A stretch of 64,000 nucleotides of DNA from Thermoplasmata archaeon (GTDB taxonomy: Archaea > Thermoplasmatota > Thermoplasmata > Thermoplasmatales > GCA-001856825), in NCBI GenBank assembly GCA_021792355.1, contig JAJYUV010000002.1, forward strand, positions 213,917-277,916. The letters run 5' to 3'. Positions 4,883-48,049 of the stretch are shown here, piece by piece (position 1 is the first letter of the stretch; every line of letters starts with the position of its first letter). The position numbers and the translations under genes are program-made. The notes beneath the pieces are model-generated. The model was not told where the DNA came from and searched no databases. It saw only the letters and a list, made by a program, of their open reading frames with translations.

Positions 4883-4891
4883 GGGGATGAA

Positions 4892-6040: not shown

Positions 6041-6043
6041 AGC

Positions 6044-14223: not shown

Positions 14224-15002
14224 TTTACCACTCCCTTCTCTACCAGGACCGAGACTAGCTTGTCCAGGTCCTCCACCCCAAGTTTCGAAGGGTTCTTCAC
14301 GGGGTCAGGGACCGTTTTCATATCCTTCACTATTGTTGGCGATCCCTTGAGTCCAATGCACATGGGATCGAGCTGCAGTTCCTTGTTAGTCACTACTCTT
14401 ATTCCCTTCTTATACGCTTCTATTTTCCTCTTGAGCGTAGGATTCCTTGGCTCGTTCGCGTTGAGCGTAATCGTTATGACTGCGGGTTTTCCTATTCTTA
14501 TCGTTTCCTCTGCTCCCTCGATATCCCTGGTGACAATGAAGTAGCCGTCATCGTACTCGACCTTGTGAACGTAAGTCGCCTGTTCACAGCCCAGGAATTC
14601 TGCTATTCCAGGCCCGACATGACCCGTCGACGAATCCGTTGTCTCTTCTCCGCAGAATATCACATCAAATCCTCCGAGATAATCTGCAACAGATGCTAGC
14701 GTGAATGCTGTAGGCCAAGTGTCCGCACCAGCAAATACTCTGTCAGTGACAAGAATTCCATTATCCACTCCCATACCCATCAGCTGAAGTAGTGCTGTGT
14801 CGGCCATGGGAGGGCCCATCGTAATCGCCGTTATCTCTCCACCATATTTGTTCTTGAGCTGTATGGCGGCTTCCGTTGCGTTGACATCTGGCGGATTGAC
14901 AACATTTCTTGCTATGCTCCTGTTCAGGGTCTTGGTGACAGGGTCAATGCTGATATCCTGACTGTCCGGAACCTGTTTTATCATTACAGCAATTTTCAAC
15001 AT
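14220..15002 (-). CDS. fixA: Electron transfer flavoprotein beta subunit (FixA type)
   Basis: A 260-residue ETF beta. It has the N-terminus KIAVMIKQVPDSQDISIDP and the nucleotide-site segment CGEETTDSSTGHVGPGIAEFLG. An in-frame upstream start at 15098 would overlap fixX deeply and add an unrelated tail. The ATG at 15002 is preferred because GGGTGAT, which includes the fixX stop, lies four bases before it. Glutamate/threonine/aspartate at the site where bifurcating ETFs hold their second flavin suggests FixABCX-type function, an inference. Confidence 0.93.
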   Translation of the reverse strand: MLKIAVMIKQVPDSQDISIDPVTKTLNRSIARNVVNPPDVNATEAAIQLKNKYGGEITAITMGPPMADTALLQLMGMGVDNGILVTDRVFAGADTWPTAFTLASVADYLGGFDVIFCGEETTDSSTGHVGPGIAEFLGCEQATYVHKVEYDDGYFIVTRDIEGAEETIRIGKPAVITITLNANEPRNPTLKRKIEAYKKGIRVVTNKELQLDPMCIGLKGSPTIVKDMKTVPDPVKNPSKLGVEDLDKLVSVLVEKGVVK

Positions 15003-15007
15003 TTTTA

Positions 15008-15286
15008 TCACCCGTACTTGTAAATTACTCCCTTGCCCGCCTTTGGATAATTCCATTTCACTGATCCCTGATCGCATGCTACGGAGCACGTTCCACATTC
15101 AACGCAGTCCTCGTACTGGAAGTTCAATTTTCCATCCTGTATTGTGTAGCACTGGGCAGGACAGGCCATTACGCAAAAATGGTGAGGGCATTTCTCGCAT
15201 ATCCTTTCATCCACCGTTATGTGCGCATATGACTTGTCTATGTCATATTTCGTCTTGCCGAGTCTCTCTTTGATGTCCAAGATCAC
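15008..15286 (-). CDS. fixX: Ferredoxin-like protein FixX
   Basis: A 92-residue iron-sulfur protein with CEKCPHHFC..ACP and CVECGTCSVAC motifs, matching the ferredoxin partner of FixC / ETF:quinone oxidoreductase. It starts with GTG; that GTG shares bases with the fixC stop (GTGA), and AGGAGG lies just upstream. Only one complete [4Fe-4S] set is apparent. It would hand electrons between the ETF and the flavin of FixC. Confidence 0.93.
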   Translation of the reverse strand: MILDIKERLGKTKYDIDKSYAHITVDERICEKCPHHFCVMACPAQCYTIQDGKLNFQYEDCVECGTCSVACDQGSVKWNYPKAGKGVIYKYG

Positions 15287-16572
15287 ATCCTCCTGTATAT
15301 GTAATAGAAATCGGTTGCTGTCTTCAACTTGCTCATCTTAAGATCCGCTGCGCAGGACCCCAGAATGTCCCTCACTTTCTTCTTGGGCTGTCCCCTTTCC
15401 CATAGCATCTCAAGAAGGATGCTTTCAAGCATCTTTGGATAGGTTGTATACATATTCTTGTTGTTCGTAACCTTCCTTATGTCCTTGAATGTTTTCAGGT
15501 CCTTCAGGACGTAGCTGCTTTCCAGCTTCTGTTTGTAAAGAGCAAGAAAATCATCAGAGAAATTATTTTTTGCCTTGGCCTCAACTGCAGTTTCACCTGC
15601 AAGGATTCCGGAGAGGAATGCGTAGTTCATTCCCTGGAGGACCAGACCGTTGCTGAACCCGAAACCTGCCGCATCCCCTACTATCATGTATCCGTTCCCA
15701 TAGAGCTTTGGAATCATATCCAAACCGCCTTCAGGAATCATGTGCGCACCATATTCCGCTACCGTTCCACCCTCTATGAGGGGAGCGATCGAGGGATGCT
15801 CTTTGAATTGCTCTATTATATCGTATGTGTGTGTGACTCCGTTCGCTCTTAGTTGTTCCATCGGTGCTACGATTCCGAGCGAGATGCTGTCCTTATTGGT
15901 GTAAAAGAATGCTCCGATGTTAAGTTCCTGCAGATTCCCAAGAATGTACTCTGACGCCATTCCAGAGGTAGAAGTGAGGTTGAACCTGTCCTCAATCTTC
16001 TGCGGACTTAACTTGATTATTTCCTTAACGCCAACTGAGACCTCCCAGTCCTGCAAAGGCTCTCTGAGCCCTGCTTCGATTGCAAGCCTTGGGTTAATTC
16101 CCTCTGCAAGTATCACGACGCTTGAAGTAACTGTGTCGCCTGACTCCACAACTCCCACAATCTTTCCATCTTTGGTTGCAAGCGATTCTACCGTTATTCC
16201 AGGAATGACCGTTGCCCCTGCTTCTTTTGCCTTCTTTGCGAGCCATGGGTCGAATTTCGAACGAAGAACGGTGTAACCGACTTTGTTGTCTTCAAAGATC
16301 TTTGTCTTGAAATCTATTATAATGGATGAATTATCGGTCAAAAATCCGATTTTTTTGTTTTGAATAAATCGTTCAAGCGGAGCCTCGCTCTGCCACTTAG
16401 GTAATATTTGCGCTAAATCATTTCCCCAGAGAACACCTCCGGAAAGATTCTTCGCACCGGGTGGGTCAGACCGATCAACTAGCAGGACGCTAAGCCCCTT
16501 GCTTGCCATCGTGATTGCAGCTGCTGAGCCAGCGTTTCCTGCACCGACAACTATAGCGTCATAATCTGGCAT
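15283..16572 (-). CDS. fixC: ETF:quinone oxidoreductase-like flavoprotein FixC
   Basis: A 429-residue FAD protein and the first gene of the operon. N-terminal dinucleotide motif GAGNAGSAAA (residues 10-19), NLSGGVLWG, and the second flavin motif MIVGDAAGFGFSNGLVLQG near residue 300 are typical of FixC/ETF-QO. It is shorter than eukaryotic ETF-QO because the ferredoxin domain is separate (FixX). A TATA-like AAATAGATTT about 25 bases upstream on the minus strand suggests a leaderless message. It delivers electrons to membrane quinone. Confidence 0.93.
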   Translation of the reverse strand: MPDYDAIVVGAGNAGSAAAITMASKGLSVLLVDRSDPPGAKNLSGGVLWGNDLAQILPKWQSEAPLERFIQNKKIGFLTDNSSIIIDFKTKIFEDNKVGYTVLRSKFDPWLAKKAKEAGATVIPGITVESLATKDGKIVGVVESGDTVTSSVVILAEGINPRLAIEAGLREPLQDWEVSVGVKEIIKLSPQKIEDRFNLTSTSGMASEYILGNLQELNIGAFFYTNKDSISLGIVAPMEQLRANGVTHTYDIIEQFKEHPSIAPLIEGGTVAEYGAHMIPEGGLDMIPKLYGNGYMIVGDAAGFGFSNGLVLQGMNYAFLSGILAGETAVEAKAKNNFSDDFLALYKQKLESSYVLKDLKTFKDIRKVTNNKNMYTTYPKMLESILLEMLWERGQPKKKVRDILGSCAADLKMSKLKTATDFYYIYRRM

Positions 16573-31945: not shown

Positions 31946-33286
31946 ATGGTCATTATGAGCAGCGACCTATCAGAGTTATTGAACGAGTTAAACATCCGAA
32001 GCGTCGATGAACTTTTTAAAGACATACCAGAGTCGATAAGAACAAAAGCACTTGGTCTCCCGAATGGGATGGACGAAGATGAGATCAGAAGGGTTGCGGC
32101 AGAGTATTCAGGGATGAACAAGACTGTAAATCAACTTCATTCTTTCCTGGGATTTGGGCTCTACAATCACTACGTTCCAGCTGCTATTTCAAACGTTGTT
32201 AATCGGAATGAGTTTCTCACGGCATATACGCCCTATCAAGCTGAAATATCGCAGGGCATTATGCAAGCACTTTTCGAGTATCAGAGTCTCGTTGCAGAAC
32301 TGTTACAGATGGATGCAGTAAATTCGTCTATGTACGATGTCTCAACCTCTCTTGGAGAGGCAGCTAGAATGTCAAAAACGATAACGGGTAAGGACGAGTT
32401 CATTGTGCCAAAATACATAAGCAAAAACAAGCGTGCAGTACTGGACAATTATGCGCGGGGTGCTGATATAAAGATCAAAGAAGTTGACTTTGACGAGAAA
32501 GGAATGATCGATCTGAATTCTCTAGAACAGAACCTGAATGAAAACACTTCTGGAGTATATGCGGAGTACCCAAACATGTTCGGTATCATAGATACCAACA
32601 TTCCGAGAATCAAGGAAACTATAGGGGATGAGAGAATCTTCGTAGCCGGAGTGAACCCGATCTCACTCGGCGTGCTTGCTCCGCCTGGAAAATTCGGAGC
32701 CGATATTGCTATCGGAGAGGGCCAGGTTCTGGGATTGGGACTCAACTTCGGAGGACCTGTAGTCGGTCTGTTCGGAACAAAGGAACAGTACATAAGAAAG
32801 ATGCCAGGCAAGATAATGGGAATCACCAAGGACCACAATGGCAAAGTGGCTTTTTCGATGATTCTTCAAACGAGAGAGCAGCACATAAGGAGAGAGAAGG
32901 CTGTCACTAACATGACAAGCAATCAAGCTCTGATGGCAGTAGCATCCGCCGTTTACCTTTCCCTGCTCGGCGATTCAGGCCTCAGGAAGATAGGAGAGGT
33001 CAACATGGGTAGAACAAGGGAACTTATTGACATTGTCAAGGAATTTGGAGTGAAACTACCTTATGATGGATCACCCGTGTTCAACGAGTTTCTCTTCAAG
33101 CTTAAGGAGTCAAAAACTTTCGTTAACAGGATTGCGAGAAAGTACAACCTGATCCCTGGACACATACTTGGGAAGGAATACGGGTTCAATGACAGAAATC
33201 AGGTCAATATTGTTACCAATGTAACCGAGAGGAATACAAACAACGACTTCGATGCATTCAGGGAATTCATGAGGGAGGTGGCCTAA
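31946..33286 (+). CDS. gcvPA: Glycine dehydrogenase (decarboxylating), subunit 1
   Basis: A 446-residue N-terminal half of the glycine cleavage P protein in its two-subunit form: SFLGFGLYNHYVPAAI, FLTAYTPYQAEISQG, YDVSTSLGEAARMS and VLGLGLNFGGPVVGLFG. It decarboxylates glycine together with subunit 2 and passes the aminomethyl group to lipoylated H protein. Neither gcvT nor gcvH is in this window. A second in-frame ATG lies nine bases downstream and cannot be excluded as start. It has the gcvPB gene directly after its stop. Confidence 0.95.
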   Translation: MVIMSSDLSELLNELNIRSVDELFKDIPESIRTKALGLPNGMDEDEIRRVAAEYSGMNKTVNQLHSFLGFGLYNHYVPAAISNVVNRNEFLTAYTPYQAEISQGIMQALFEYQSLVAELLQMDAVNSSMYDVSTSLGEAARMSKTITGKDEFIVPKYISKNKRAVLDNYARGADIKIKEVDFDEKGMIDLNSLEQNLNENTSGVYAEYPNMFGIIDTNIPRIKETIGDERIFVAGVNPISLGVLAPPGKFGADIAIGEGQVLGLGLNFGGPVVGLFGTKEQYIRKMPGKIMGITKDHNGKVAFSMILQTREQHIRREKAVTNMTSNQALMAVASAVYLSLLGDSGLRKIGEVNMGRTRELIDIVKEFGVKLPYDGSPVFNEFLFKLKESKTFVNRIARKYNLIPGHILGKEYGFNDRNQVNIVTNVTERNTNNDFDAFREFMREVA

Positions 33287-34762
33287 ATGTATCACCAGGC
33301 AGTTTTCGACGAACCAATAATCCTGGACGTAAAGGGAAGGAGAACTATCAAGATCCCTCTCGAGAATGAAAAATTCAGGATAGACGTTCCTGATGCGATG
33401 AAGCGTGAAAACATCGGTATTGGGGACAGGGAGGAGTTCTCAGTGATCAGGCATTATGTCAAACTCTCCGAGATGAATTTCGGAGCAGACACTGGCTTTT
33501 ATCCTCTCGGTTCCTGCACTATGAAATACAACCCAAAGATAAACGATGAGATTGCATCAATGGACGGATTCAGGATGATCCATCCACTCCAGGATTCTTC
33601 CGAAGTTCAGGGAGCGCTGAAGCTCCTCTACGAACTTTCCGAGTCACTAAAGAAAATAACCGGAATGGACGAGATTACCCTGCAACCTCTGGCAGGAGCA
33701 GGTGGAGAATTTACCGGACTTTCCATAGTGAGGGCATACTTCTACTGCAAGAAAGAGCTGGACACGAGGAGAGAGGTCGTCGTCCCGGATTCCGCACACG
33801 GCTCAAATCCTGCTTCTTCACACATGGCGGGATTCGATGTCGTTCAGATTCCATCGACTGAGGATGGAACTGTCGACATAGAAAAATTCAAAGAAGCGGT
33901 CACGGAAAGAACCGCCGCATTCATGATAACCAACCCTAACACTCTGGGAATTTTTGAAGACAGGATCGTAGAGATGGCAAATTATGCACATTCCAAGGGA
34001 GCTCTTCTCTACTACGACGGAGCGAACTTGAATGGAATAATGACGAAGACCACACCCGCAAAGATGGGATTCGATATCGTTCACCTGAACCTCCACAAAA
34101 CATTCTCCACCCCTCACGGTGGTGGCGGACCAGGTGCCGGTCCGGTCGGCGTAGTCGAGAAGCTCAAGGACTTCCTGCCGTACCCTCTCGTCACTTTTGA
34201 TGGAGAGAGATACAACAACGATTACGTTCCGCCAAAAACTATAGGAAAGGTCGCCAGCTTCTATGGTAATTTCGGCGTGCTCGTCAGAGCTTGGACTTAC
34301 ATCAAAATGATGGGTGAGGAGGGACTCAGGGATGCCTGCGAAACTGCAGTTTTGAACTCAAACTATATGAGAAAGAGAATGGAGCAGTTCATGCCTGTTC
34401 CGGGAAAAACTATCAAGAAACACGAGTTCGTTGCTTCGTCTGTTGGAAACAACATGCCAAAGGCCGGGGATATTGCAAAGCATCTTATCGACAATGGAGT
34501 TCATGCCCCAACCATCTATTTTCCACTGATAGTTCCTGAAGCACTGATGATCGAACCCACCGAAAGCGCAACTAAAACTGAAATGGATCTGTTTATAGAG
34601 ACTGTGAGGCAGGCACTGAAACTATCCCACGAAGCATTCGAAAAAGAACCATCAAACCTCAAGGTCACTAGAATTGACGACGTCGACGCTTCTAAGAATC
34701 CGAAACCTACGCTGAGAATGGTGAGGAAGGAACAGAGAGGGCCTCTACAACAAATGATTTAA
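33287..34762 (+). CDS. gcvPB: Glycine dehydrogenase (decarboxylating), subunit 2
   Basis: The 491-residue PLP-carrying half of the P protein. It has YPLGSCTMKYNPKIN, QPLAGAGGEFTGL, DSAHGSNPASSHMAGF, NPNTLGIFE, and the Schiff-base lysine in HLNLHKTFSTPHGGGGPG. The start follows the gcvPA stop with no gap and is preceded by GGGAGGTGG. The C-terminal domain (PTESATKTEMDLFI) is complete. The lipoate and E3 this system needs could come from lipA/lipB and lpdA at 2068-7973. Confidence 0.96.
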   Translation: MYHQAVFDEPIILDVKGRRTIKIPLENEKFRIDVPDAMKRENIGIGDREEFSVIRHYVKLSEMNFGADTGFYPLGSCTMKYNPKINDEIASMDGFRMIHPLQDSSEVQGALKLLYELSESLKKITGMDEITLQPLAGAGGEFTGLSIVRAYFYCKKELDTRREVVVPDSAHGSNPASSHMAGFDVVQIPSTEDGTVDIEKFKEAVTERTAAFMITNPNTLGIFEDRIVEMANYAHSKGALLYYDGANLNGIMTKTTPAKMGFDIVHLNLHKTFSTPHGGGGPGAGPVGVVEKLKDFLPYPLVTFDGERYNNDYVPPKTIGKVASFYGNFGVLVRAWTYIKMMGEEGLRDACETAVLNSNYMRKRMEQFMPVPGKTIKKHEFVASSVGNNMPKAGDIAKHLIDNGVHAPTIYFPLIVPEALMIEPTESATKTEMDLFIETVRQALKLSHEAFEKEPSNLKVTRIDDVDASKNPKPTLRMVRKEQRGPLQQMI

Positions 34763-34784: not shown

Positions 34785-34869
34785 GCGGAGGTTGCCGAGC
34801 TTGGCCAAAGGCGACAGACTCAAGATCTGTTTCCATAGGGATTCGCCGGTTCAAATCCGGCCCTCCGCA
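34785..34869 (+). tRNA. tRNA-Leu (anticodon CAA)
   Basis: The acceptor stem GCGGAGG pairs with CCTCCGC and is followed by discriminator A. The anticodon stem ACAGA/TCTGT encloses CTCAAGA with anticodon CAA (codon UUG). A long variable arm (TTCCATAGGGATT) marks it as class II. The T arm is GCCGG/CCGGC with TTCAAAT. No intron, no encoded CCA. It starts 22 bases after the gcvPB stop, so it may be partly read from that operon. Confidence 0.95.
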
Positions 34870-34975
34870 CTTCCCTTCCAGTATTTCTATTAGTGGATAT
34901 GAGGATTCGCGTGATAGAGGAATTGGTGACATTAGGAACCATTCATACAGGCATAAATTGCGTCCTCCAAAAAGC

Positions 34976-35052: not shown

Positions 35053-35361
35053 GTGCATGTTATGTTGAAAGAGCCTAAGATTTCTGATGACCAAAAGGAG
35101 ATTTGGAGAGAGCCGGTTAATTCCGACAGACTCACCAAACCTAAGGGGGAGGTGCACATAATTCCGGAGAGGTGCAAGGAGTGTAACTACTGCACCAACT
35201 ATTGTCCAAACGATGTTCTTGAAAGGTCTCCTACTGTGAACAGTCACGGTTATCACCCAGTAAGGGTTAGAGCCGGGAAGGAAGATTCATGCGTTGCCTG
35301 CGGAATGTGTCAAACGATCTGTCCTGACTTTGCAATTTATGTGAGGGAGGTACCGACTTGA
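35053..35361 (+). CDS. korD: 2-Oxoacid:ferredoxin oxidoreductase, delta (ferredoxin) subunit
   Basis: A 102-residue protein with two [4Fe-4S] motifs, CKECNYCTNYCP and CVACGMCQTICP, the dicluster layout of KorD/PorD. It is the first gene of an eight-gene operon that runs to 44116. Start either GTG at 35053 or ATG at 35062, nine bases later; the TATA-like box at 35016-35023 gives a very short leader in both cases. Its stop overlaps the korA start (TTGA). Confidence 0.88.
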   Translation: MHVMLKEPKISDDQKEIWREPVNSDRLTKPKGEVHIIPERCKECNYCTNYCPNDVLERSPTVNSHGYHPVRVRAGKEDSCVACGMCQTICPDFAIYVREVPT

Positions 35362-36494
35362 CAGCATTGTTAGAGCCGGGAAGGTACTTTGCGGACGGAA
35401 ACTTGGCAGTTACCGAGGGAGCTCTAATGGCTGGCTGCAGATTCTTTGCTGGTTATCCGATAACTCCTTCCAGTGAGGTTCTTGAAAGGATGAGTGAACG
35501 TCTACCAAAACTAGGCGGACACTTTATCGAGATGGAAGACGAGATAGGAAGCATGGCCGCTATAATCGGAGCTTCCAATGCAGGAGCAAAGAGCATGACC
35601 GCCACTTCCGGACCAGGGTTTTCACTTATGCAGGAGAACATCGGTTTAGGAATCATCACTGAAACACCAACCGTCATCCTGGATGAGATGAGAGCGGGCC
35701 CTTCTACTGGTATTCCTACCAGGGTTGGTCAGGGAGACGTAATGCAGACGCGATATGGATCCCATGGGGATCTGGCACCGATAACGTATGCGCCAAACAG
35801 CGTACAGGAATCCTTCGACCTTGCAATAGAGGCATTCAATTCAGCTGAAAGATACAGGCAACCAGTCATAATAGCCTCTGATCAAGTCGTGGGACATCTC
35901 TCTGAAGTACTGGATGTGAAGGCACCCGAGGAATATGAAGTCGTTCAGAGGTTAACGAGGAGAAGCGATGATGAGAGCAGAGTTTTCAGTTATACTGATG
36001 ATTACATACCAATGTTTGTCGCAGGTCAAGGATTCAGAGGAAATGTTGATAGCCTGACTCACGACGAGAGAGGGTATCCTTCCAATGAGTCTTCCGTTGA
36101 GAGAGAGATGCTAGAGCATCTAATGGGGAAAGTGAAAAAGAACGAAGAAAAAATAGTGAGATATGAGGAATTTTTCCTGCAGGATGCAGAAGTAGTCGTG
36201 GTCGCTTATGGAATAACTTCCAGAGCAGCAAAGCAGGCCGTCAGAATCGCCAGGAAGAGAGGACTCAAAGTGGGTCTTTTCAGACCGATAACTCTGTGGC
36301 CCTTCCCGCAGAAAAGGATCGAACAAATCAGCACAGAGGCCAAGCAGTTTATCGTTCCGGAGATCAACTACGGTCAGTATTCACATCCAATAAGAGAGTA
36401 CAGCAAATCAGAAACCAAGGAGATCCATTTTCCACCGGGAGCGATTCCAGACTACAGCGTCATCCTTAATGCAATCAAGGAGGCATTCAGATGA
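35358..36494 (+). CDS. korA: 2-Oxoacid:ferredoxin oxidoreductase, alpha subunit
   Basis: A 378-residue subunit with FFAGYPITPSSEVLE, TATSGPGFSLMQENIG and the GPSTGIPTRVGQGD loop. It matches the KorA group that uses 2-oxoglutarate or related longer 2-oxoacids. Domain II/III follow (VVVVAYGITSRAAK, GLFRPITLWPFP). With beta, gamma and delta it oxidises a 2-oxoacid to acyl-CoA and reduces ferredoxin. It begins with TTG overlapping the korD stop. The exact substrate cannot be read from sequence. Confidence 0.93.
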   Translation: MTALLEPGRYFADGNLAVTEGALMAGCRFFAGYPITPSSEVLERMSERLPKLGGHFIEMEDEIGSMAAIIGASNAGAKSMTATSGPGFSLMQENIGLGIITETPTVILDEMRAGPSTGIPTRVGQGDVMQTRYGSHGDLAPITYAPNSVQESFDLAIEAFNSAERYRQPVIIASDQVVGHLSEVLDVKAPEEYEVVQRLTRRSDDESRVFSYTDDYIPMFVAGQGFRGNVDSLTHDERGYPSNESSVEREMLEHLMGKVKKNEEKIVRYEEFFLQDAEVVVVAYGITSRAAKQAVRIARKRGLKVGLFRPITLWPFPQKRIEQISTEAKQFIVPEINYGQYSHPIREYSKSETKEIHFPPGAIPDYSVILNAIKEAFR

Positions 36495-37333
36495 CCACTG
36501 AAGAATTCCACCCAAAACATTCTCTAATCAGGGAAGAGAGATTTCCGAATGTTTGGTGTCCGGGTTGCGGACTAGGTATACTTTTGCAGAGTTACCTGAA
36601 TGCGGTTGAAAAATCTGGGATACCAACCGAACAACACGTCCTCGTCTCAGGTATCGGGTGTACAGCCCGACTTCCGGGTTATGCAAAATTTGATTCATAT
36701 CACACCACCCACGGGAGGGCTATACCCTTTGCAACTGGGATGAAGATTGCTAACCCGGAGCTGAAGGTGACGGTAATAAGCGGTGATGGTGACCTCTTCA
36801 ACATAGGAGGTAATCATTTTATTCACGCCGCAAGGAGAAACATGGACCTAGTGGTGATCTGTTCAAACAACTTCAATTACGGAATGACCGGTGGACAGCA
36901 CGGTTCAACAACACCACTCACTTCAAAGTCAGCTTCCACGCCATATGGCAATGTGGAACCAACGTTCAACCTCCCCTATCTAGCGTCTGCCCTTGGTGCT
37001 TCTTACGTCTCCAGATGGACGGTAATGCATCCCAGACAGCTGGCAAAATCCATCAAAAAGGCGATGGAGACGAAGGGGTTTGCCTTTATCGAAGTACTCT
37101 CCCCGTGCCCTCCGAATTTTGGCAAATTCAACGGATTTGCGGATGGCTTGGAAGAGATGGAATTCTACCGTACCAAATCAACCGTACAGAACGATGCCAG
37201 GCTTGAGGATGTATCGATCGATCCATTTCACGGGAAACCGGTCGTTCTAGGAGATTTTGTTGATAGGAAGAGACCATCCTACATAATGCTAGAAAATGAA
37301 CTCATAAAGAAAGCAATGGGGGCAGTGAAATGA
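36491..37333 (+). CDS. korB: 2-Oxoacid:ferredoxin oxidoreductase, beta subunit (TPP-binding)
   Basis: A 280-residue thiamine diphosphate subunit. It has PNVWCPGCGLGIL near the N-terminus, TTHGRAIPFATGMK, and the TPP/Mg motif SGDGDLFNIGGNHF...CSNNFNYGMTGGQ. SPCPPNFGKF near 205 holds a conserved cysteine. It overlaps both neighbours by four bases (ATGA), strongly suggesting equimolar synthesis with KorA and KorC. Confidence 0.94.
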   Translation: MTTEEFHPKHSLIREERFPNVWCPGCGLGILLQSYLNAVEKSGIPTEQHVLVSGIGCTARLPGYAKFDSYHTTHGRAIPFATGMKIANPELKVTVISGDGDLFNIGGNHFIHAARRNMDLVVICSNNFNYGMTGGQHGSTTPLTSKSASTPYGNVEPTFNLPYLASALGASYVSRWTVMHPRQLAKSIKKAMETKGFAFIEVLSPCPPNFGKFNGFADGLEEMEFYRTKSTVQNDARLEDVSIDPFHGKPVVLGDFVDRKRPSYIMLENELIKKAMGAVK

Positions 37334-37863
37334 AGCTCGGGATCAGGATGTACGGAATGGGAGGCCAAGGGATAATAACCCTTGCAAAACTGGTTGGAGA
37401 GGCTGCTCTGGAGGATGGAAAATTCGTCATCATGACCGAAGAATACAGCCCTTACGTCACTGGAGGATGGTCCAAGGCTGATCTGGTCATAAGTGATGAG
37501 GTGATAGATTATCCGCTTCCTGAAGAACTCAATTATCTTGTAACTCTTTCACAAGAGGGATTGGACACCACCTTGAAGGACTTGAACTCCAAGTCAATGG
37601 TACTAACAGAAAAGAGTCTGGTGACGGTCCCTGAAAACATGAGAACAAGAAGCATAGAGATCAGTGGAATAGAGATTTCAAAGTCCTTGAAGAACCCCAA
37701 GGGAGCAAACATTGTACTGATGGGGGCTTTTTCTGGATTTACAAAGACTTTTTCTGCGGAGTCTGGGAGAAGGGCAATAACGAAAAGATTCCCCAAGTAT
37801 GTGGATGCGAACATAGCTTGTTTTGAACGCGGGTACGACGAGGGGGTCAAGTATGGCAGATAA
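37330..37863 (+). CDS. korC: 2-Oxoacid:ferredoxin oxidoreductase, gamma subunit
   Basis: A 177-residue gamma subunit: GMGGQGIITLAKLVGEAAL near the N-terminus and EEYSPYVTGGWSKADLVIS in the middle are diagnostic. The start overlaps korB (ATGA), and the end overlaps the HdrA-type gene by 11 bases. This ties the oxidoreductase directly to the heterodisulfide-reductase-like proteins that follow. It completes the korDABC set. Confidence 0.93.
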   Translation: MKLGIRMYGMGGQGIITLAKLVGEAALEDGKFVIMTEEYSPYVTGGWSKADLVISDEVIDYPLPEELNYLVTLSQEGLDTTLKDLNSKSMVLTEKSLVTVPENMRTRSIEISGIEISKSLKNPKGANIVLMGAFSGFTKTFSAESGRRAITKRFPKYVDANIACFERGYDEGVKYGR

Positions 37864-40800
37864 GGTACTGATCATAGGAGGAGGAATAGCGGGTATTCAG
37901 GCATCTCTTGACCTAGCCGAGGCAGGGGCAGAAGTATTGCTGGTGGAGAAGACTGCGTCCATCGGCGGTAAGATGGCTGCATTAGACAAGAATTTTCCGA
38001 CATTTGATTGTTCTATATGCATTGAAGCCCCCAAGATGAGTGACGTGACCCACAATCCAAACATCAAGGTGCTCACTCTGGCAGAGGTCACTGAGGTGAA
38101 GGGGGAGGAGGGCAATTTCCAGGTGACAATAAATCAGAAGCCGAGGTTTGTTACAGATGCATGCACCAGGTGTGATCTGTGCACTCAGGCATGTCCCCAG
38201 ATTCGAAAGAACGAGTTTGATGCCGGAGTTGGAGCAAGAAAGGCAATATATACTCCATTTCCCCAGGCGGAGCCTGGACCTTACGTCATAGATATAGAGA
38301 GTTGCCTGAACGATCCTCCGAACTATCTTCCTTGCGGACGATGCACAGACGCTTGCGGACCAGATGCTATAGACTTTAACATGAAACCCAACGTGATAAC
38401 TGAAAACGTCGCCTCCATAATAGTGGCAACAGGCTTTGACCTGTTCAATGCATCACTTCTTGACGAATTCGGATATTCTTCCGATCCGGACATTCTCACG
38501 TCATATGAACTGGAAAGACTCATAAATGCAGCTGGACCAACCGACGGAGAGGTTATAAAACCATCAAACGGAAAGCATCCGGATAGCGTATTGTTCGTTC
38601 TCTGCGCTGGATCTCGTGACACCAGGTTTGTCCCCTATTGTTCGAGGACGTGCTGCATGTACTCAATAAAGGAGGCAACCCAGCTGGTCGACCACGGAAT
38701 AAAGAACGTGACTGTGCTTTACATGGACATACGTGCCTACGGAAAGGGATTCGACGAACTTTACTCTAGGTCTCAGAAGGACGTTCGATACATAAGATCA
38801 AGACCCGCATCGGTGAAGAGGAGCGGCGACAACATATCCGTAAGGTATGCAACTAATGACGGTTCGATCATGGAGGAAGAGTACGGAATGGTTGTTCTTG
38901 CAACCGCTTCCATTCCCTCAAAGGGTACTCCAAAGCTCGCGAAGACACTTGGAATTGAACTTTCTGAGGACGGATTCTTCAAGAACAGACTCGAGGACCC
39001 GGTTTCTACGACGAGAAATGGAATCTTCGTTGCTGGATGCGCCTCCGGGCCCAAGGACATCCCGGATAGCGTGACCGAAGCGTCTGCTGCAACGGCCCAG
39101 GCCCTGAGATACGTGAAAAAGAGAGAATGGATAGAGGAGCCCCTGCCCCCTCCCCTGGACGTCTCTGGGGACCCGAGAATTGGTGTTTTCCTGTGCGACT
39201 GCGGGTCCAACATTGCTGGAGTCGTTGACGTCAAGAGGGTTGCGGACGAGATTAGGGCAATGCCCAACGTGGTTTATGTGGAGGAGAATAAATACACCTG
39301 TGCTGGGAGCACACAGGATTCTATAAAGGAGAAGATAATAGAGAAGAAACTGAACAGGCTTGTCGTTGGGGCCTGTTCTCCCAAGACGCACGGTGTGACA
39401 TTCCAGAGAGTGTGTTCCAGAGCTGGGTTGAACCCATATCTATTTGAGATGGCCAATGTTAGAAACATGGACTCGTGGGTCCACAAAAAGGAGAAAGTTC
39501 CAGCAACTGAAAAGGCGGTGGACATAGTGAACATGGCAGTTTCAAAGGCAAGGCTGCTCACTCCACTTGAGGACATCGAGTTTCCCGTAATCAGAACTGG
39601 CATCGTCATAGGCGGAGGACCTGCAGGAATTGCGGCTGCCTCTTCCCTCTCTAGAATGGGAATTGAGGTCCACTTGGTTGAAAAAGAAGAGAAGTTGGGA
39701 GGCCTCCTGAATTCGATAGACATCATTTCTCCTGAACTAGAGAGTGCCGGTAATACCCTTCAGAAATTGAAGGAAGGATTGCAGAAATCTGGTGCAATCG
39801 TTCACACCTCCACAAGGGTAGATGAAATAACAGGTTTTGTAGGGAACTTCTCGTGCAAACTTTCAGATGGGGAGAAAATTGATGCAGGTGCGATCATCCT
39901 TGCTACAGGAGCGGATCCATACCAGCCAACTGAATTCAAGTATGGAGAGGTCCCGGAGGTGATAACTTCTCTCGACCTAGAGAAGAACTACTCGAAGATA
40001 GAGGGTGACAAATATGCCATGATTTCATGCGTAGGCTCTAGAAACGGAGAGAGAGGTTGTTCGAGATTCTGCTGTTCTACCATGCTCCAACAGGCGATTA
40101 GTTTGAAGGAAAAGGGAAAGATCGTCCGGGTGTTTTACAAAGACATTAGGGCATACGAGAGAAATGCGGAGGAACTATACAGAAAGGCTGGAGAGAAGGG
40201 TGTTCAATTCTTCAGATACGATCCCTCCAAATTACCAAATGAAGCTCTGGAATTTGACGGTTCTTCGCTGACCTTCTTGGATCATCTGTCTTCCGCAAAG
40301 ATGAAGGCGCCGGTCGATCATCTTGTGCTGAACATTGGACTGAAACCAAAGGATGAGGAGATATTCACTCAACTAAAACTCTCGAGAGATAGCGAAGGGT
40401 TTTTACTGGAAGTCCACCCCAAACTCGGGCCCGTAGAGGCTGCCGTCCAAGGGGTATTCCTTGCCGGGACTGTTCAGGGACCGAAAGGTGTGAAGGAGTC
40501 CATAGCGCAGGGATATGCGACCGCCGCCAAGGCAGCGAAACTTCTGTTTAGTGGTAAAATAAACAAGGAACCCATAATACCACAGATAGACGAGAAAAAG
40601 TGCGTGAAGTGCCTTAGATGCGCCGAAGTCTGCCCATATGGAGCGATTAAGGGAGAGAGGGGGAAGTGGATAAATCTAGTTCCCGCAGCATGCATGGGAT
40701 GTGGAAATTGTGTAGCGGAGTGCAATATAGAAGGGGCCATCACTATGCCTAATTTCACAGACACTGAAATTATGACACAGATAGATGCCGCAACCGCTGA

Positions 40801-41239
40801 AAAACCCGAGGAGAAGTTGGTTGTCTTTGCTTGCAACTGGTGTTCCTACGCTGGGGCAGATCAAGCAGGAATTTCAAAAATCCAATATCCTCCGAGCGCA
40901 CGTGTTATCAGGACCATGTGCTCAAGCAGAATATCTCAAAAGTTGGTCATGTATGCTTTCAGCAGGAACCCGGGGGCCGTACTCGTCACCGGCTGTCACA
41001 TAAACGACTGCCACTACATTGACGCAAACGAGTACACGGAAAAGAGAGTTGAAAGGTGGAGGCACTTCCTAGAAGCGAAGAAAGTCAACCCGGATAGATT
41101 GCAGTTATGGTGGGTCAGCGCAGCAGAAGGCAACAGGTTTGCTTCAAAGATCAGAGAGATGGATGCATTGATCAAATCCCTATCGAGGGATGAAATTTTT
41201 AGCACTGAATCGAAGCTGAAGGGGGTGGTAAAACGCTAG
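37853..41239 (+). CDS. hdrA: Giant HdrA-type protein: two flavin modules, ferredoxin domains and MvhD domain
   Basis: A 1128-residue soluble flavo-iron-sulfur protein. Module 1 (about 1-425) has the FAD motif GGGIAG at 9-14, FPTFDCSICIEAPKM, and [4Fe-4S] motifs CTRCDLCTQACP (about 103) and CGRCTDACGP. Module 2 (about 440-890) has FLCDCGSNIAG, a second FAD motif GGGPAGIAAA (about 586), and CVGSRNGERGC. Next come two [4Fe-4S] motifs, CVKCLRCAEVCP and CMGCGNCVAEC (about 916-960). Last is an MvhD domain (about 985-1115; CNWCSYAG, CSSRIS, GCHINDCHY). The layout resembles QmoA and QmoB joined, or a doubled HdrA2. The ATG at 37853 with an upstream GAGGGGGT is preferred over an in-frame TTG at 37823. 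It is probably the electron-splitting centre of the operon's complex. Confidence 0.9.
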   Translation: MADKVLIIGGGIAGIQASLDLAEAGAEVLLVEKTASIGGKMAALDKNFPTFDCSICIEAPKMSDVTHNPNIKVLTLAEVTEVKGEEGNFQVTINQKPRFVTDACTRCDLCTQACPQIRKNEFDAGVGARKAIYTPFPQAEPGPYVIDIESCLNDPPNYLPCGRCTDACGPDAIDFNMKPNVITENVASIIVATGFDLFNASLLDEFGYSSDPDILTSYELERLINAAGPTDGEVIKPSNGKHPDSVLFVLCAGSRDTRFVPYCSRTCCMYSIKEATQLVDHGIKNVTVLYMDIRAYGKGFDELYSRSQKDVRYIRSRPASVKRSGDNISVRYATNDGSIMEEEYGMVVLATASIPSKGTPKLAKTLGIELSEDGFFKNRLEDPVSTTRNGIFVAGCASGPKDIPDSVTEASAATAQALRYVKKREWIEEPLPPPLDVSGDPRIGVFLCDCGSNIAGVVDVKRVADEIRAMPNVVYVEENKYTCAGSTQDSIKEKIIEKKLNRLVVGACSPKTHGVTFQRVCSRAGLNPYLFEMANVRNMDSWVHKKEKVPATEKAVDIVNMAVSKARLLTPLEDIEFPVIRTGIVIGGGPAGIAAASSLSRMGIEVHLVEKEEKLGGLLNSIDIISPELESAGNTLQKLKEGLQKSGAIVHTSTRVDEITGFVGNFSCKLSDGEKIDAGAIILATGADPYQPTEFKYGEVPEVITSLDLEKNYSKIEGDKYAMISCVGSRNGERGCSRFCCSTMLQQAISLKEKGKIVRVFYKDIRAYERNAEELYRKAGEKGVQFFRYDPSKLPNEALEFDGSSLTFLDHLSSAKMKAPVDHLVLNIGLKPKDEEIFTQLKLSRDSEGFLLEVHPKLGPVEAAVQGVFLAGTVQGPKGVKESIAQGYATAAKAAKLLFSGKINKEPIIPQIDEKKCVKCLRCAEVCPYGAIKGERGKWINLVPAACMGCGNCVAECNIEGAITMPNFTDTEIMTQIDAATAEKPEEKLVVFACNWCSYAGADQAGISKIQYPPSARVIRTMCSSRISQKLVMYAFSRNPGAVLVTGCHINDCHYIDANEYTEKRVERWRHFLEAKKVNPDRLQLWWVSAAEGNRFASKIREMDALIKSLSRDEIFSTESKLKGVVKR

Positions 41240-41274
41240 AGGTCGATGATCTCCGGTGGGAGAAGGTTACCAAC

Positions 41275-42363
41275 TTGACAGGATTCGACGGAAACGAGTG
41301 CTTTCAGTGTGGTGTTTGTACTGCGACCTGTCCGCTCGGTTACATGGGAGAAGAGGACTTAGATGTAAGGAACCTGATCCGAAGAGCCCAAATAGGTCTA
41401 GATATCTCCGAGACCGTATGGAACTGTTCTACTTGCAAACTCTGCGAAAAGTCCTGTCCGCGACAGGTAGAGATAGTGAACGTGATTACGGGCCTCAGAC
41501 AACTCGAACTCGAAGAGAGAAGAGCCCCAGACAAGATAGTCAAGCTTCTGTGGGATATATACGAAAATGGAAACCCATGGGGCGGAAAAAAGATAGACAG
41601 ATCGAAATGGGCTGAAGGACTCAACATCAAGGATGCCAAGGAGGGAACCGATGTACTTCTATACGTTGGATGCGACGCAGCCTATAACAAGAATCTTCAC
41701 AAATCGCTAAGGGGCCTGGCTGATGTCATGAAAAAAGCCGGAATCAATTTTGGAATCTTGGGTAATGAAGAGAGATGTTGTGGAGAGCCAGTGAGGAATG
41801 CTGGTGAAAGATACTTTCTCGAAGATCTGGTGAGCGACAATATAGCACAGTTCGAAAAGACCGGGGCAAAGACTATAGTCGCGTTCTCCCCGCACTGTGG
41901 GAATATGTTCAATACCATCTATAAGAAGAGTGGGTTGAAGCTGAATGTAATACACTACTCGGAATTCCTAAATTCACTTCTGCAAGACGGTAAAGTGAAT
42001 CTCCAGAAGGAAGCTCGCGGGAAAATCACAATTCACGATCCGTGCTACCTAAGCAGGTATGGCGACGGGCCCGACAACTTGAGGGAGATGTTTAGCCTTT
42101 TCCCAGAAATAGAGGTAAGGGAAATGGCATCTTCTGGAAAAGATAGTCTCTGTTGTGGAGGGGGCGGAGACAGAATGTTCGTAGACTTTGAGGGAAAAAG
42201 ACTCTCCGATTTCAGAATTGAACAGGCCAGGGATACAGGCGCAGAGACAGTGATAACCGCATGTCCGATATGCAACATGAACCTCTTAGACAGTGCGAAG
42301 ACCAATGGAGTTAACGTTCGTGTGAAAGAGTTAGGCGAGTTCTTGGAGGAGAATCTGAAATGA
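41275..42363 (+). CDS. HdrC-HdrB (HdrD-like) iron-sulfur protein
   Basis: A 362-residue protein joining an HdrC-type N-terminus (ECFQCGVCTATCP and NCSTCKLCEKSCP, two [4Fe-4S] clusters) to two HdrB-type CCG domains. The first CCG domain (VGCDAAYNK, ERCCGEPV, FSPHCGNM) lacks the last cysteine of the usual pair. The second (HDPCYLSRY, LCCGGGGDR, ACPICNMN) is complete. No membrane helices and no HdrE partner, so it is soluble. It starts at TTG with GGAGAAGG upstream. The frame is open for 66 bases before it and reads like protein (LEVDDLRWEKVTN), so a non-standard earlier start is possible. It is expected to take electrons from the HdrA protein to a disulfide-type or other acceptor. Confidence 0.88.
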   Translation: MTGFDGNECFQCGVCTATCPLGYMGEEDLDVRNLIRRAQIGLDISETVWNCSTCKLCEKSCPRQVEIVNVITGLRQLELEERRAPDKIVKLLWDIYENGNPWGGKKIDRSKWAEGLNIKDAKEGTDVLLYVGCDAAYNKNLHKSLRGLADVMKKAGINFGILGNEERCCGEPVRNAGERYFLEDLVSDNIAQFEKTGAKTIVAFSPHCGNMFNTIYKKSGLKLNVIHYSEFLNSLLQDGKVNLQKEARGKITIHDPCYLSRYGDGPDNLREMFSLFPEIEVREMASSGKDSLCCGGGGDRMFVDFEGKRLSDFRIEQARDTGAETVITACPICNMNLLDSAKTNGVNVRVKELGEFLEENLK

Positions 42364-43334
42364 CAAGGAAAGAAATATGGGTAGTGGTCGAAAGAAGCGA
42401 AGGCGAGATAGAGGATGTGTCTCTGGAAATTATAGGTAAATTGAATGTGATAACAAAGTCCTCTCCATATAAAATCGTAGCTATTGTGCTCGGTACCTCT
42501 GAAGAGAGAGAGTTGCAGGATATTATCAGATATGGAGCTGACAAAGTGATTCTGCTAAAACACGAAAGGCTCAATGAGTATTCGAATGACCTGTACTCAA
42601 AGGCCCTTTTTGATCTAGCCTCATCTGAATTTCCAACTGCTCTTCTGATAGGTGCGACCTACTACGGCAGAGACCTTGCTGGTAGGCTTGCAGCAAGACT
42701 CCGAACTGGTCTAACCGCAAACGCCATCAATCTAGAGATGGACGAGGAGGGGCTTCTCGTTTTTGGCGTTCCGGCATATGGGGGTAAAATAATGGCTGAA
42801 ATCATCTGCGAGAAGGCTCGTCCACAGATGTCCACAGTTAGGCCAGGTACATTTACAAAGGTCTATGATCAGAACAGGAAGGGGGAAATCGTTGAAGTGG
42901 TACCTGATCTTTCATCCGTGAAAGACAGGGTAAGAGTAATCGAAAGAAAGGTCACGAAATCAAAGGACCTCACGAAGTCTGAGAGAACTATCGTCGGAGG
43001 GAACGGAATCGGAGGAAACATTTCACTAGTACGGAAGCTTGCTGAACTCACTAACTCGGATGTGGGTGTTACGAGACCACTAGCCGACAAAGGAATAGCC
43101 CCTAGGGAACTGCAGGTTGGAACCACTGGATACTCTTTGAAATCCAAGCTTACTCTAATTTTGGGCGTGAGTGGTTCTGAACACTTCACGTCAGGCATAA
43201 GGGACTGTAGGACTGTTATCTCAGTTGACATAGACAGGGAATCAGAAATATTCAACCACTCTGACTATTGTGTGGTGGGGGATGTTTCTGAGATAATTCC
43301 CGCCGTCATCAAGAGACTGGAGGAAAAAAGATGA
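42360..43334 (+). CDS. etfA: Electron transfer flavoprotein alpha subunit, divergent second copy
   Basis: A 324-residue ETF alpha clearly different from the FixB copy at 13156. The FAD domain is recognisable (VGGNGIGGNISLVRKLAEL, GVTRPLADKG, LQVGTTGYSLKSK, VVGDVSEIIPAV). However, the GAIQHxAGM loop is GSEHFTSGI and the INKD segment is SVDID. It overlaps the HdrC-HdrB gene and etfB by four bases each. This places the ETF in the same assembly as the Hdr-like proteins. Likely role: flavin branch of the electron transfer complex; the partner dehydrogenase is unknown. Confidence 0.88.
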   Translation: MTRKEIWVVVERSEGEIEDVSLEIIGKLNVITKSSPYKIVAIVLGTSEERELQDIIRYGADKVILLKHERLNEYSNDLYSKALFDLASSEFPTALLIGATYYGRDLAGRLAARLRTGLTANAINLEMDEEGLLVFGVPAYGGKIMAEIICEKARPQMSTVRPGTFTKVYDQNRKGEIVEVVPDLSSVKDRVRVIERKVTKSKDLTKSERTIVGGNGIGGNISLVRKLAELTNSDVGVTRPLADKGIAPRELQVGTTGYSLKSKLTLILGVSGSEHFTSGIRDCRTVISVDIDRESEIFNHSDYCVVGDVSEIIPAVIKRLEEKR

Positions 43335-44116
43335 GAAACATTATCGTCTGTTTGAAGGTAGTCCCGAAGTCAGAAAACATCATCTTTGATCCCGTGACGA
43401 AGAGACTGGACAGGAGTAAGGCTGAGAACCAGATAAACGAAGCTGACAAAACAGCAATCGAGATTGCCTTGAGGATTAGGGAGAAACACGGAGGGAGAGT
43501 GATTCTTATCTCCATGGGTCCTCCTTTGTTCGAGAACTTCCTTAAACTTGGAATAGCTATGGGAGCAGACGACGCTGTTCTCCTCTCGGACAGAAATTTT
43601 GGGGGGGCGGATACCTATCCAACAGCACTCGTCCTGTCAACTGCCATAGCTCAAATAGGAGACTATGACCTGATTCTGGCAGGTGAGGAGTCATCAGATG
43701 CTGCTCTTGGGCAGTTACCAGGACAAATTGCCGAGTTTCTAGACATACCGCAAGTCATGTTTGCCACCTCTGTTGAGGTAGATGCAGACAAACTAAAGGT
43801 ACAGAGAAGAATAAAGGGAGGACACGAGACAGTTGAGACCTCCCTCCCTGCAATGATAAGCATTGAGATGGGAGCGGTACAGCCGCGATTTCCGGATTTC
43901 AAAAGGATGAAATGGGCGATCTCCCAGTTCCATCTAACGGTGTGGTCTTCAAACAATCTCGGTCTGAGGGAAGAGGTAACAGGCATTAAGGGTTCTTTCA
44001 CATTTGTGCGAGGACTTAATGAAATAACACCTTCGAAAAGAAAGAAGGTGTTTATAGAGGGGGACGTGGCAGAGAAATCGAGAAGGCTAGCAGAACTGCT
44101 TAGGGAACAATCATGA
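43331..44116 (+). CDS. etfB: Electron transfer flavoprotein beta subunit, second copy
   Basis: A 261-residue ETF beta: IIVCLKVVPKSENIIFDP at the N-terminus, AGEESSDAALGQLPGQIAEF at the nucleotide/second-flavin loop. It is the last gene of the Kor-Hdr-Etf operon. Gene order is alpha then beta, opposite to the fixA-fixB order at 13156-15002, supporting separate origin. The basic C-terminal stretch (TPSKRKKVFIEGDVAEKSRR) is the usual arm that embraces the alpha subunit. Confidence 0.9.
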   Translation: MRNIIVCLKVVPKSENIIFDPVTKRLDRSKAENQINEADKTAIEIALRIREKHGGRVILISMGPPLFENFLKLGIAMGADDAVLLSDRNFGGADTYPTALVLSTAIAQIGDYDLILAGEESSDAALGQLPGQIAEFLDIPQVMFATSVEVDADKLKVQRRIKGGHETVETSLPAMISIEMGAVQPRFPDFKRMKWAISQFHLTVWSSNNLGLREEVTGIKGSFTFVRGLNEITPSKRKKVFIEGDVAEKSRRLAELLREQS

Positions 44117-44248: not shown

Positions 44249-44569
44249 TCAGTCGCTGCCAAAATCATTACCCAAGAAATCCTCTACACCATATTTCTCG
44301 GCAATCTTTCTGAAACATTCGAGAGCATCCGTGTATTTTTCGTAGTATTCAGCCCCGTAGCTGGCCGGTTTGTCTGCAGTCGCTTCCATGCTAGCAGATA
44401 CCAACCATCCCTCAGAGGTTGTGTCACGAGCAAGTTCAAGCACTATGTAATCTCCGTCCAGCTTGAAAATCTTCAGTAAGCGCTTGTTTTTCGGTTCCTC
44501 CTTGCAAAGTCCTCTAGCTCTGGCAACAACATCACACCTGTCTTCCAGATGTTCTTGTTCGCCAAACAT
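44249..44569 (-). CDS. Hypothetical protein
   Basis: A 106-residue acidic protein without membrane helices. It contains LKIFKLDGDYIVLELARDT and a Tyr-rich helix SYGAEYYEKYTDALECFRKI, and has three cysteines that are not spaced as a metal site. An upstream in-frame start at 44617 exists. The ATG at 44569 lies about 24 bases after a TATA-like TTATTATA, which suggests a leaderless start there. No family recognised. Convergent with the end of the Kor-Hdr-Etf operon. Confidence 0.55.
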   Translation of the reverse strand: MFGEQEHLEDRCDVVARARGLCKEEPKNKRLLKIFKLDGDYIVLELARDTTSEGWLVSASMEATADKPASYGAEYYEKYTDALECFRKIAEKYGVEDFLGNDFGSD

Positions 44570-44617
44570 AATGATGTATGACAATTGAAGTATAATAAGA
44601 TTATTCAATGAATACAA

Positions 44618-47003: not shown

Positions 47004-48049
47004 ATGGCCTCAGATAGAGGTACGAGCAGCTCAAGAAGCGTGGAGATAAGCTTGCGGAAATCAAGAACGTCATAGACTGGGAGAGCCTGAGACCTATGCT
47101 CAAGGATCTTTTTACAAACGACACTGAGCAGGGAGGGAGACCGAACTACGATGAGATATTGATGGTGAAGATACTCTTCCTGCAATCAATTTACAACATC
47201 GTTGATGAGTCGATGGAGACGGAGATATATGACAGCGTAAGGCTCGTCAACTTCCTTGACTACCCTGAAAGTGTGCCGGACCAGAACACGATATGGCTCT
47301 TCAGGGAGAGGCTGTCCAAGACTGGCAAGGAAAAAGCACTGTGGAAGGAGATATGGAGACAATTCAGGGAGAAGGGCATAACGGTGAGGAACGGCACAAT
47401 TCAAGACGCAACATTCATCACTTCCGATCCTGGTCACAAGAGAAAGGAGAAGCCCTATATGGTCGATCCGCAGATGCCTCCTATCAGCAGTGGGAAGGAT
47501 TATCCCGGCCCTGAAAAGAAGACAAAGAATGAAGTGAAGTCTGCCTTGATAGACAAAAGGAAGCATTCATTGTCAAGAAGGTCCAAGGATGGGAGCTGGA
47601 CTGAGAAGAATTCAAGGTCATACTTCGGTTACAAGCTTCACACAATTCAGGGGGTGGAGAACGATATGATAGCAAACTACGCAGTTACCACTGCATCTGT
47701 CCACGACTCCCAGAGGGACCTCTCTATCCCAGAAATAGTGAACTACAAGGACAAAGCGTATTTCGGAGTCGAGAGTAGGGGTATTGATGCTACGATGGAC
47801 AGAGCTGTAAGAGGGCACAAGCTTCCTATAGAATCCATAAGGAGGAATCTAAGGATAACGAGGAAGAGGTCGAGGGGTGAGAGACCGTATTCCGTGATGA
47901 AAAGGACCTTCCGTGGAGGACACACTTTCGTCACAACGGTCCCGAGGGTGAGGGTTAAGTCTATGTTCATGTGCCTAGGCCACAATCTTTTCAACTTATT
48001 GTCCCTGAAAAGGAGGGGTAAGATAGCTTCAGCTATCCCAGTCAGCTGA
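47004..48049 (+). CDS. IS5-family transposase, 5' end frameshifted
   Basis: A DDE transposase of IS5 type. The N-terminal DUF772-like domain (GRPNYDEILMVKILFLQSIY) is followed by the catalytic domain with first Asp in GTIQDATFITSD, second Asp in KDKAYFG and Glu in RGERPYSVMKR. The in-frame ATG is only at 47096. However, coding continues upstream (RYEQLKKRGDKLAEIKNVID) to a frameshift at about 47013-47020, where a two-base AG duplication separates it from the natural start at 47004. That start has GGTGA three bases before it. A product from 47096 would lack about 30 residues. Confidence 0.85.

Follow-up and report, generated by a model that had tools for sequence, protein, structure and literature searches.

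A Kor-Hdr-Etf operon in Thermoplasmata

Do neighbouring genes for a 2-oxoacid:ferredoxin oxidoreductase (Kor), heterodisulfide reductase-like proteins (Hdr) and an electron-transferring flavoprotein (Etf) encode one machine, and in which direction would electrons run through it? This question was raised by an operon at positions 35053-44116 (+ strand) of a 64,000-nucleotide stretch from a Thermoplasmata archaeon (assembly GCA_021792355.1, contig JAJYUV010000002.1, positions 213,917-277,916 of the forward strand), in the following termed the window. All eight genes, encoding KorD, KorA, KorB, KorC, HdrA, HdrCB, EtfA and EtfB, were present (Table 1). Gene content, conserved gene order and residue patterns were observed directly, and one soluble complex would be the simplest reading of the conserved synteny. 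Judged from sequence, we consider the chances about even that the operon encodes a single soluble complex, in which a 2-oxoacid oxidoreductase and, via an EtfD-like Fe-S protein, an Etf are wired to an HdrA hub.

Neighbouring genes overlapped by 4 bases at five of the seven junctions and by 11 bases between KorC and HdrA. HdrA and HdrCB overlap by 1 base if a conserved N-terminal extension of HdrCB is translated; otherwise a 35-base gap to a TTG codon at 41275 remains. Gene calls, Pfam matches and junction measurement agreed with the first-pass annotation of this DNA, which had described eight genes on one strand with overlaps of mostly few bases. Using the NCBIfam cut-offs, only KorA and HdrA exceeded theirs, while the remaining six proteins stayed under them.

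Conservation of the gene cluster

Loci L001-L011 were chosen by scanning species genomes with no other query than HdrCB, so that Kor, HdrA and Etf provide independent evidence there; the eight genes were found in order at 11/11. The scan yielded 29 loci, these 11 from Thermoplasmata (52-91% identity) and 18 at 22-32% identity, mostly from Lokiarchaea, where the ordered eight-gene set was not present. Among 400 Thermoplasmata genomes, 234 contained an HdrCB-profile match at E <= 1e-40; weaker matches, among those listed, lay mostly in open frames of greater length (660-690 residues). The order HdrA-HdrCB-Etf was detected in at least 19 of the 400 genomes, with the 30 best places fetched and the 11 known loci included. 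Wider stretches of the eight newly found loci revealed five full clusters and three ended by a contig edge, and an EtfA search of 389 Thermoplasmatota genomes added two further full clusters. Since L060-L067 were taken after HdrA-HdrCB-Etf had become visible in 4-kb stretches, and L078-L079 via EtfA, only Kor is independent evidence at these loci (7/7 untruncated); Kor never served to select any locus.

Overall, 18 of 21 loci carried all eight genes, colinear and on a single strand, and at the other three the contig ended inside HdrA. Chance adjacency was ruled out by this colinearity at 18/18 untruncated loci, and the synteny, for which the first-pass annotation had proposed a search, extends far beyond this genome. 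The lowest best-stretch identities per gene were 28% for KorC, 35% for HdrCB, 39% for EtfA, 43% for KorD, 44% for EtfB, 46% for KorA, 51% for KorB and 53% for HdrA.

At five loci with an HdrCB of 38% identity (L068-L071, L077) no EtfAB match above 60 bits was found within the 18-19 kb read, which confines the Etf linkage to one HdrCB clade. Loci L069-L071 carried KorBC ahead of an HdrA, and for L068 and L077 no Kor match was found in the stretch read. The order at L069, L070 and L071 was Kor-HdrA-HdrCB-HdrA-HdrCB with no Etf match, as if the second HdrA/HdrCB pair replaced EtfAB; L070 also had FlpD as a separate piece.

HdrA relatives of 54-58% identity occurred, according to source names, in Nitrososphaerota, Chloroflexi, Rokubacteria, Armatimonadota and one haloarchaeon. 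Beyond Thermoplasmatota, at least 15 HdrA-HdrCB, at least 7 HdrA-EtfA and at least 10 HdrCB-EtfA pairs seemingly shared a contig among the matches listed; these are indirect coincidences picked by eye for HdrA, HdrCB and EtfA only, and several bear the name Thermoplasmata. One coincident pair, equally indirect, was named Nitrososphaerota for both proteins, a hint at linkage in at least one group outside Thermoplasmatota. An HdrA search of a plasmid collection yielded 1 of 72,556 records (Ilyobacter, 40% identity).

HdrA as putative electron hub

HdrA reached 1169 bits against NF040770 (HdrA2; cut-off 1100). In the alignment with the HdrA of HdrABC-MvhADG (5odc), a first module, HdrA', spanned residues 3-430 with an inserted ferredoxin domain. 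The second, HdrA'', consisted of an N-domain (440-582), a second flavin module (584-900) and a ferredoxin domain (911-957), and was followed by a C-terminal MvhD/FlpD domain (986-1110). The lysine at the flavin N5 of HdrA is K409. By counting along the alignment, Lys273 of the window protein equals K409 and Cys56 equals C197. Both were invariant in 28/28 giant HdrAs (the window protein and 27 of 120 listed matches, bacterial proteins included), and so were the cysteines of MvhD and of both ferredoxin domains, the inserted and the C-terminal one. In module 2, the ungapped counterpart of K409 (column 746, five residues past a CC pair) was variable in these proteins, with Gly in 9, Gln in 5 including the window, Asn in 4, Lys in 3 and other residues in 7, one of them Arg.

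An Arg or Lys at N5 was described for all analysed bifurcating enzymes (PMC9232219; this and all other papers given by PMC number are cited from excerpts). The first-pass annotation had assigned the merging or splitting of electrons to HdrA; the invariant lysine of module 1 supports this in part, as to the site and not as to the direction. The N-domain and the Cys197 equivalent were split within one chain, with Cys56 in module 1 and the N-domain in module 2. Complementary loss of the same two elements in fused HdrAs of anaerobic methanotrophic (ANME) archaea and Moorella was read as an internal heterodimer (PMC9012536).

HdrCB as candidate electron wire

HdrCB consists of an HdrC-like 2[4Fe-4S] part and two CCG domains and has no membrane part. 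Its closest solved relative, both by sequence and by structure model, was EtfD of M. smegmatis, an ETF:menaquinone oxidoreductase (9ojn), to which it aligned at residues 285-746 only. HdrCB shares with EtfD a soluble core with two cubane and two CCG sites, a Pro-His-Cys motif and an Etf partner, and the equivalent of EtfD His583 was kept in 40/40 HdrCB proteins. Differences to EtfD were the much shorter chain, the absence of the haem b membrane domain, Cys181 for Thr539 and Ser217 for Cys581. In HdrB, the CCG motif CX31-39CCX35-36CXXC occurs in two copies. Of the two complete motifs of the HdrB type, HdrCB has only the second (5 Cys, 40/40), while the first lacks one cysteine, Ser217 replacing that of the third position in 40/40. 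According to the EtfD authors, His583 makes the noncubane cluster non-catalytic (PMC13083937).

From its sequence, HdrCB looks like an electron wire joining HdrA and the downstream Etf. A quinone-reducing EtfD identity was ruled out by the missing membrane part. The first-pass annotation had let the CCG protein deliver electrons to an outside acceptor, with disulfides among the substrates to test. This delivery is less supported, given the likeness to EtfD, the conserved histidine and the serine.

Two relatives (P0214 and P0216, 2/40) carried Ser in place of Cys220 in the first CCG site, which may accordingly hold another cluster or none. The N-terminal extension (window 41239-41277) was conserved as protein, yet its first codon differed among loci: Met in L001, L002 and L006, Val in L007, Glu in the window, L003, L004 and L008. 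This junction may have a non-standard start or one further downstream, or its ATG may have been lost.

An Etf without the bifurcation arginine

Both Etf subunits scored best against bifurcating Etfs, a group with CarDE, Bcd-EtfAB, LctBC and EtfABCX, among the solved relatives (EtfA 257 bits to 5ol2 versus 112 to human 1efv; EtfB 197 bits to 6fah versus 85 to 1efv). Unlike these, they lacked the Arg at N5 of the beta-flavin adenine dinucleotide (FAD), lacked the exact EtfB beta-FAD motif DGDTAQVGP and had Phe for His at EtfA 276. In Ldh-EtfAB, R205 of EtfA is essential for coupling (PMC9232219). Val137 of the window EtfA faces the Arg of RPAFGG in the alignments with 5ol2 and 6fah, and corresponds to LctC R205 by the 7qh2 match, whose offset is 4 to 72. 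Position 137 was Val in 15/15 Kor-Hdr EtfAs. Six other Etfs, namely three Fix Etfs, two fused ones and one of beta-oxidation type, drawn from the window and from four relatives, carried Arg (4) or Lys (2) there, and His at 276. In the 120 closest EtfAs listed out of 7623 matches, the window's own included, position 137 was Val in 115, Thr in 5 and Arg or Lys in none, and position 276 was Phe in 120/120.

The RXFXG stretch of EtfB, a contact to nicotinamide adenine dinucleotide (NAD), was kept in 15/15 proteins. DGDTAQVGP itself occurred in 0/15, the pattern D-A/G-A/G/S-L/T-G/S/A-Q-L/V-P in 15/15, coming nearest to it in L061 and L066 (DASTAQVPP in L066). The window Fix EtfB carries DSSTGHVGP, so the motif is variable in Fix types, too. 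In two unrooted trees the Kor-Hdr Etfs separated from the six other Etfs (support 0.976 and 0.925). Val137, Phe276 and the tree split point to a distinct clade of Etfs that, on sequence grounds, is probably no longer bifurcating. A bifurcating Etf identity was rejected in view of the lost N5 arginine.

Kor subunits

The four-subunit set KorDABC, including thiamine pyrophosphate (TPP) and ferredoxin subunits, was complete. Only the alpha subunit lay above a curated NCBIfam cut-off (NF006412, an alpha model for 2-oxoacid:acceptor oxidoreductases, 486 bits versus 411), with 1yd7 as best solved relative. Among solved proteins, KorB was closest to the beta subunit of a 2-oxoglutarate ferredoxin oxidoreductase (8ys5), and the best match of KorD was OorD/OGOR_delta, under its cut-off. 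A second KorAB pair adjoins the cluster in L060 (15612-17517), L067 (8297-10187) and L062 (10-1736).

Proposed mechanism and alternatives

In Mvh-Hdr, MvhD is the entry for electrons, the HdrA flavin divides them, and the inserted ferredoxin domain and HdrBC are their exits (PMC9012536). Mapped onto this plan by analogy, Kor would occupy the low-potential port and Etf the high-potential port behind the EtfD-like wire, while MvhD, as mid-potential port, would have no partner inside the operon. KorABC would oxidise a 2-oxoacid with coenzyme A (CoA) and pass low-potential electrons via KorD to HdrA. The double HdrA may form its own pseudo-dimer, with the FAD of module 1 (Lys273) as likely branch point. 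HdrCB would serve as Fe-S wire instead of as disulfide reductase, and EtfAB, docking on it, as non-bifurcating carrier of higher-potential electrons.

Confurcation is the direction that we prefer. The electrons of Kor and the higher-potential electrons of Etf would meet at HdrA and exit as a mid-potential pair via MvhD to a carrier encoded elsewhere. Branched-chain amino acid oxidation delivers one pair at low potential, in the step from 2-oxoacid to acyl-CoA, and one at high potential, in the step from acyl-CoA to enoyl-CoA. This 1:1 ratio would be what a confurcating device needs, and is the least certain part. Tentatively, we put forward that HdrA merges the electrons of a built-in 2-oxoacid oxidoreductase and of a built-in, bifurcation-disabled Etf, with a single mid-potential carrier taking up both and no free ferredoxin involved. 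The first-pass annotation had Kor-ferredoxin and ETF electrons combined in HdrA, or the reverse, a reading that we find partly supported.

For the cell context, 16 draft genomes with the full cluster from the class sample were inspected (G401 and G403 not included). NuoD was found in 16, NuoF in 1, COX1 in 11 (one weak) and E2 in 13; absences carry little weight in these drafts of uncertain completeness. Without a NuoF match in 15/16, other respiratory entry routes would be needed.

Several observations speak against a confurcating supercomplex. Ten neighbour proteins at six loci all differed (molybdopterin enzyme, Fer4, NAD-binding proteins, amino-acid permease, M13 peptidase, cytochrome b, group II intron and others; L011 alone had an adjoining fused Etf), hence no shared neighbour or acceptor gene was found among them; the operon itself encodes no mid-potential acceptor. 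COX1 was not found in 5/16 drafts and was weak in a sixth, so the role of the operon may differ among lineages. Each of the same drafts contained 3-10 POR_N matches. Given the conserved RXFXG and the near beta-FAD motif in outer lineages, EtfB may still bind FAD and NAD. Module 2 of HdrA carries Lys or Arg at the K409 position in 4/28 and is not uniformly free of positive charge there, HdrCB matched TfrB best in NCBIfam, though far under its cut-off, and the variants at L069-L071 tie Kor-Hdr to a second HdrA and HdrCB without an Etf match.

A linear wire without confurcation, running from Kor via HdrA and HdrCB to Etf and on to an acyl-CoA dehydrogenase or, through FixCX or an EtfD-like protein, to the quinone pool, would make the complex an Etf-linked 2-oxoacid dehydrogenase. 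Every step would be downhill, HdrCB is EtfD-like, NuoD without NuoF prevails in the drafts, and acceptors are at hand with FixABCX in the window and, in one relative, a 670-residue EtfD-like protein (membrane part presumed) encoded next to an Etf pair and beta-oxidation genes. Such a wire would be wasteful, as the ferredoxin could feed a complex I lacking NuoF, and it offers no reason for HdrA to retain its lysine, both low-potential clusters and the MvhD domain; we regard it as rather doubtful.

Unlikely is the reverse, in which HdrA bifurcates electrons of a mid-potential donor from MvhD, one going to Kor for reductive carboxylation of acyl-CoA (a 2-oxoacid synthase) and the other to HdrCB/Etf. 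It shares its direction with Mvh-Hdr (PMC9012536) and would supply Kor with very low-potential electrons without free ferredoxin, but Pfam revealed no hydrogenase, formate or F420 subunit as donor module among the eight genes, and other window genes belong to oxidative pathways (glycine decarboxylase, 2-oxoacid dehydrogenase complex). Reduction of a true disulfide by HdrCB (lipoamide, a low-molecular-weight thiol or a protein disulfide), with Etf as mere side entry, is very improbable: the complete second CCG motif and the lipoyl-type enzymes encoded in the window would suit it, while the serine of the first CCG motif, the EtfD-type histidine, the modelled fold closest to EtfD and the downstream EtfAB at 11/11 loci chosen by HdrCB alone oppose it.

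If confurcation holds, two successive amino-acid oxidation steps of very different potential would feed the same mid-potential carrier, bypassing free ferredoxin. The cluster also bears on electron disposal in those Thermoplasmata without a NuoF match.

Relation to known systems

HdrABC-MvhADG and methanogen HdrA2B2C2 share with the operon the K409-bearing flavin module, the inserted and C-terminal ferredoxin domains, MvhD and HdrC-type clusters. Unlike in these, HdrA is doubled in one chain, one CCG cysteine is missing from the HdrB-like part, Kor and Etf stand in the operon, and a hydrogenase, formate or F420 module is absent from the eight genes. Two modules with complementary Cys197 and N-domain are also found in ANME HdrA3/4 and Moorella MetFV-HdrA (PMC9012536); compared to ANME HdrA3/4, the order of the halves is reversed here and the protein is tied to Kor and Etf. 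HdrA-HdrA-MvhD fusions were already reported in Asgard and TACK archaea (PMC11237513).

In Sulfobacillus and Thermomicrobium, hdrABC likewise adjoins etfAB; these clusters differ by TusA, DsrE and lipoate-binding or GcvH-like proteins and a proposed role in sulfur oxidation, and Kor is not mentioned in the excerpts (PMC4378227; PMC6776052). A sulfur-oxidising sHdr cluster was ruled out, as no tusA, dsrE or lipoate-binding gene is among the eight (neighbours were not searched).

Bifurcating complexes were sorted into four flavin-hub groups (Etf-, HdrA-, NuoF- and NfnB-type; PMC5861303), and twelve bifurcating enzymes were listed in PMC6085437. In the excerpts of both, no complex combined Etf with HdrA or was fed by a 2-oxoacid oxidoreductase. 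Those of PMC6289977, PMC9723716, PMC10354927, PMC12533140, PMC2702500 and PMC9239135 contained Hdr or Etf genes, and not the Kor-Hdr-Etf set. No description of a Kor-Hdr-Etf complex was found in the open-licence literature searched. All parts are of known kinds; as far as seen, the novelty lies in how they are assembled and in the changed Etf and HdrCB signatures. The recurrent cluster would widen the known partners of HdrA and provide a case of an Etf without the bifurcation arginine tied to HdrA.

Genomic neighbourhood

Table 1. Genes of the operon and neighbouring features, in window positions.
Feature	Position	Strand	Description
KorD	35053..35361	+	2[4Fe-4S] ferredoxin subunit; Pfam Fer4 families; 8 Cys: 41, 44, 47, 51, 80, 83, 86, 90
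KorA	35358..36494	+	2-oxoacid:ferredoxin oxidoreductase alpha; Pfam POR_N and PFOR_II
KorB	36491..37333	+	TPP subunit beta; Pfam TPP_enzyme_C
KorC	37330..37863	+	Gamma subunit; Pfam POR
HdrA, 1128 residues	37853..41239	+	Pfam: two FAD/Rossmann modules, Fer4, FlpD
HdrCB, 362-374 residues	41239..42363	+	Pfam Fer4 and two CCG stretches; first listed start TTG 41275
EtfA	42360..43334	+	Pfam ETF and ETF_alpha; Val137, Phe276; clade without bifurcation arginine
EtfB	43331..44116	+	Pfam ETF; RXFXG kept, exact DGDTAQVGP absent
Radical SAM gene, then E1 alpha, E1 beta, E2, E3	2068..7363	+	2-oxoacid dehydrogenase complex
FixABCX	13156..16572	-	EtfA, EtfB, FixX-like ferredoxin, FixC-like flavoprotein; about 18 kb upstream of the operon
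gcvPA/gcvPB	31946..34762	+	Glycine decarboxylase; just upstream of the operon
tRNA-Leu	34785..34870		Between gcvPB and korD
Small gene	44249..44617	-	
Transposase gene	47096..48049	+	DUF772/DDE; 3 kb downstream of the operon

By its place among the genes, the radical S-adenosylmethionine (SAM) protein is guessed to be a lipoyl synthase. FixC and FixX of the window stayed under their NCBIfam cut-offs, and ETF-domain matches numbered 4-10 per genome in 11 genomes. Among the 29 loci of the HdrCB scan, tblastn relatives of the small minus-strand gene occurred in L001-L004 only.

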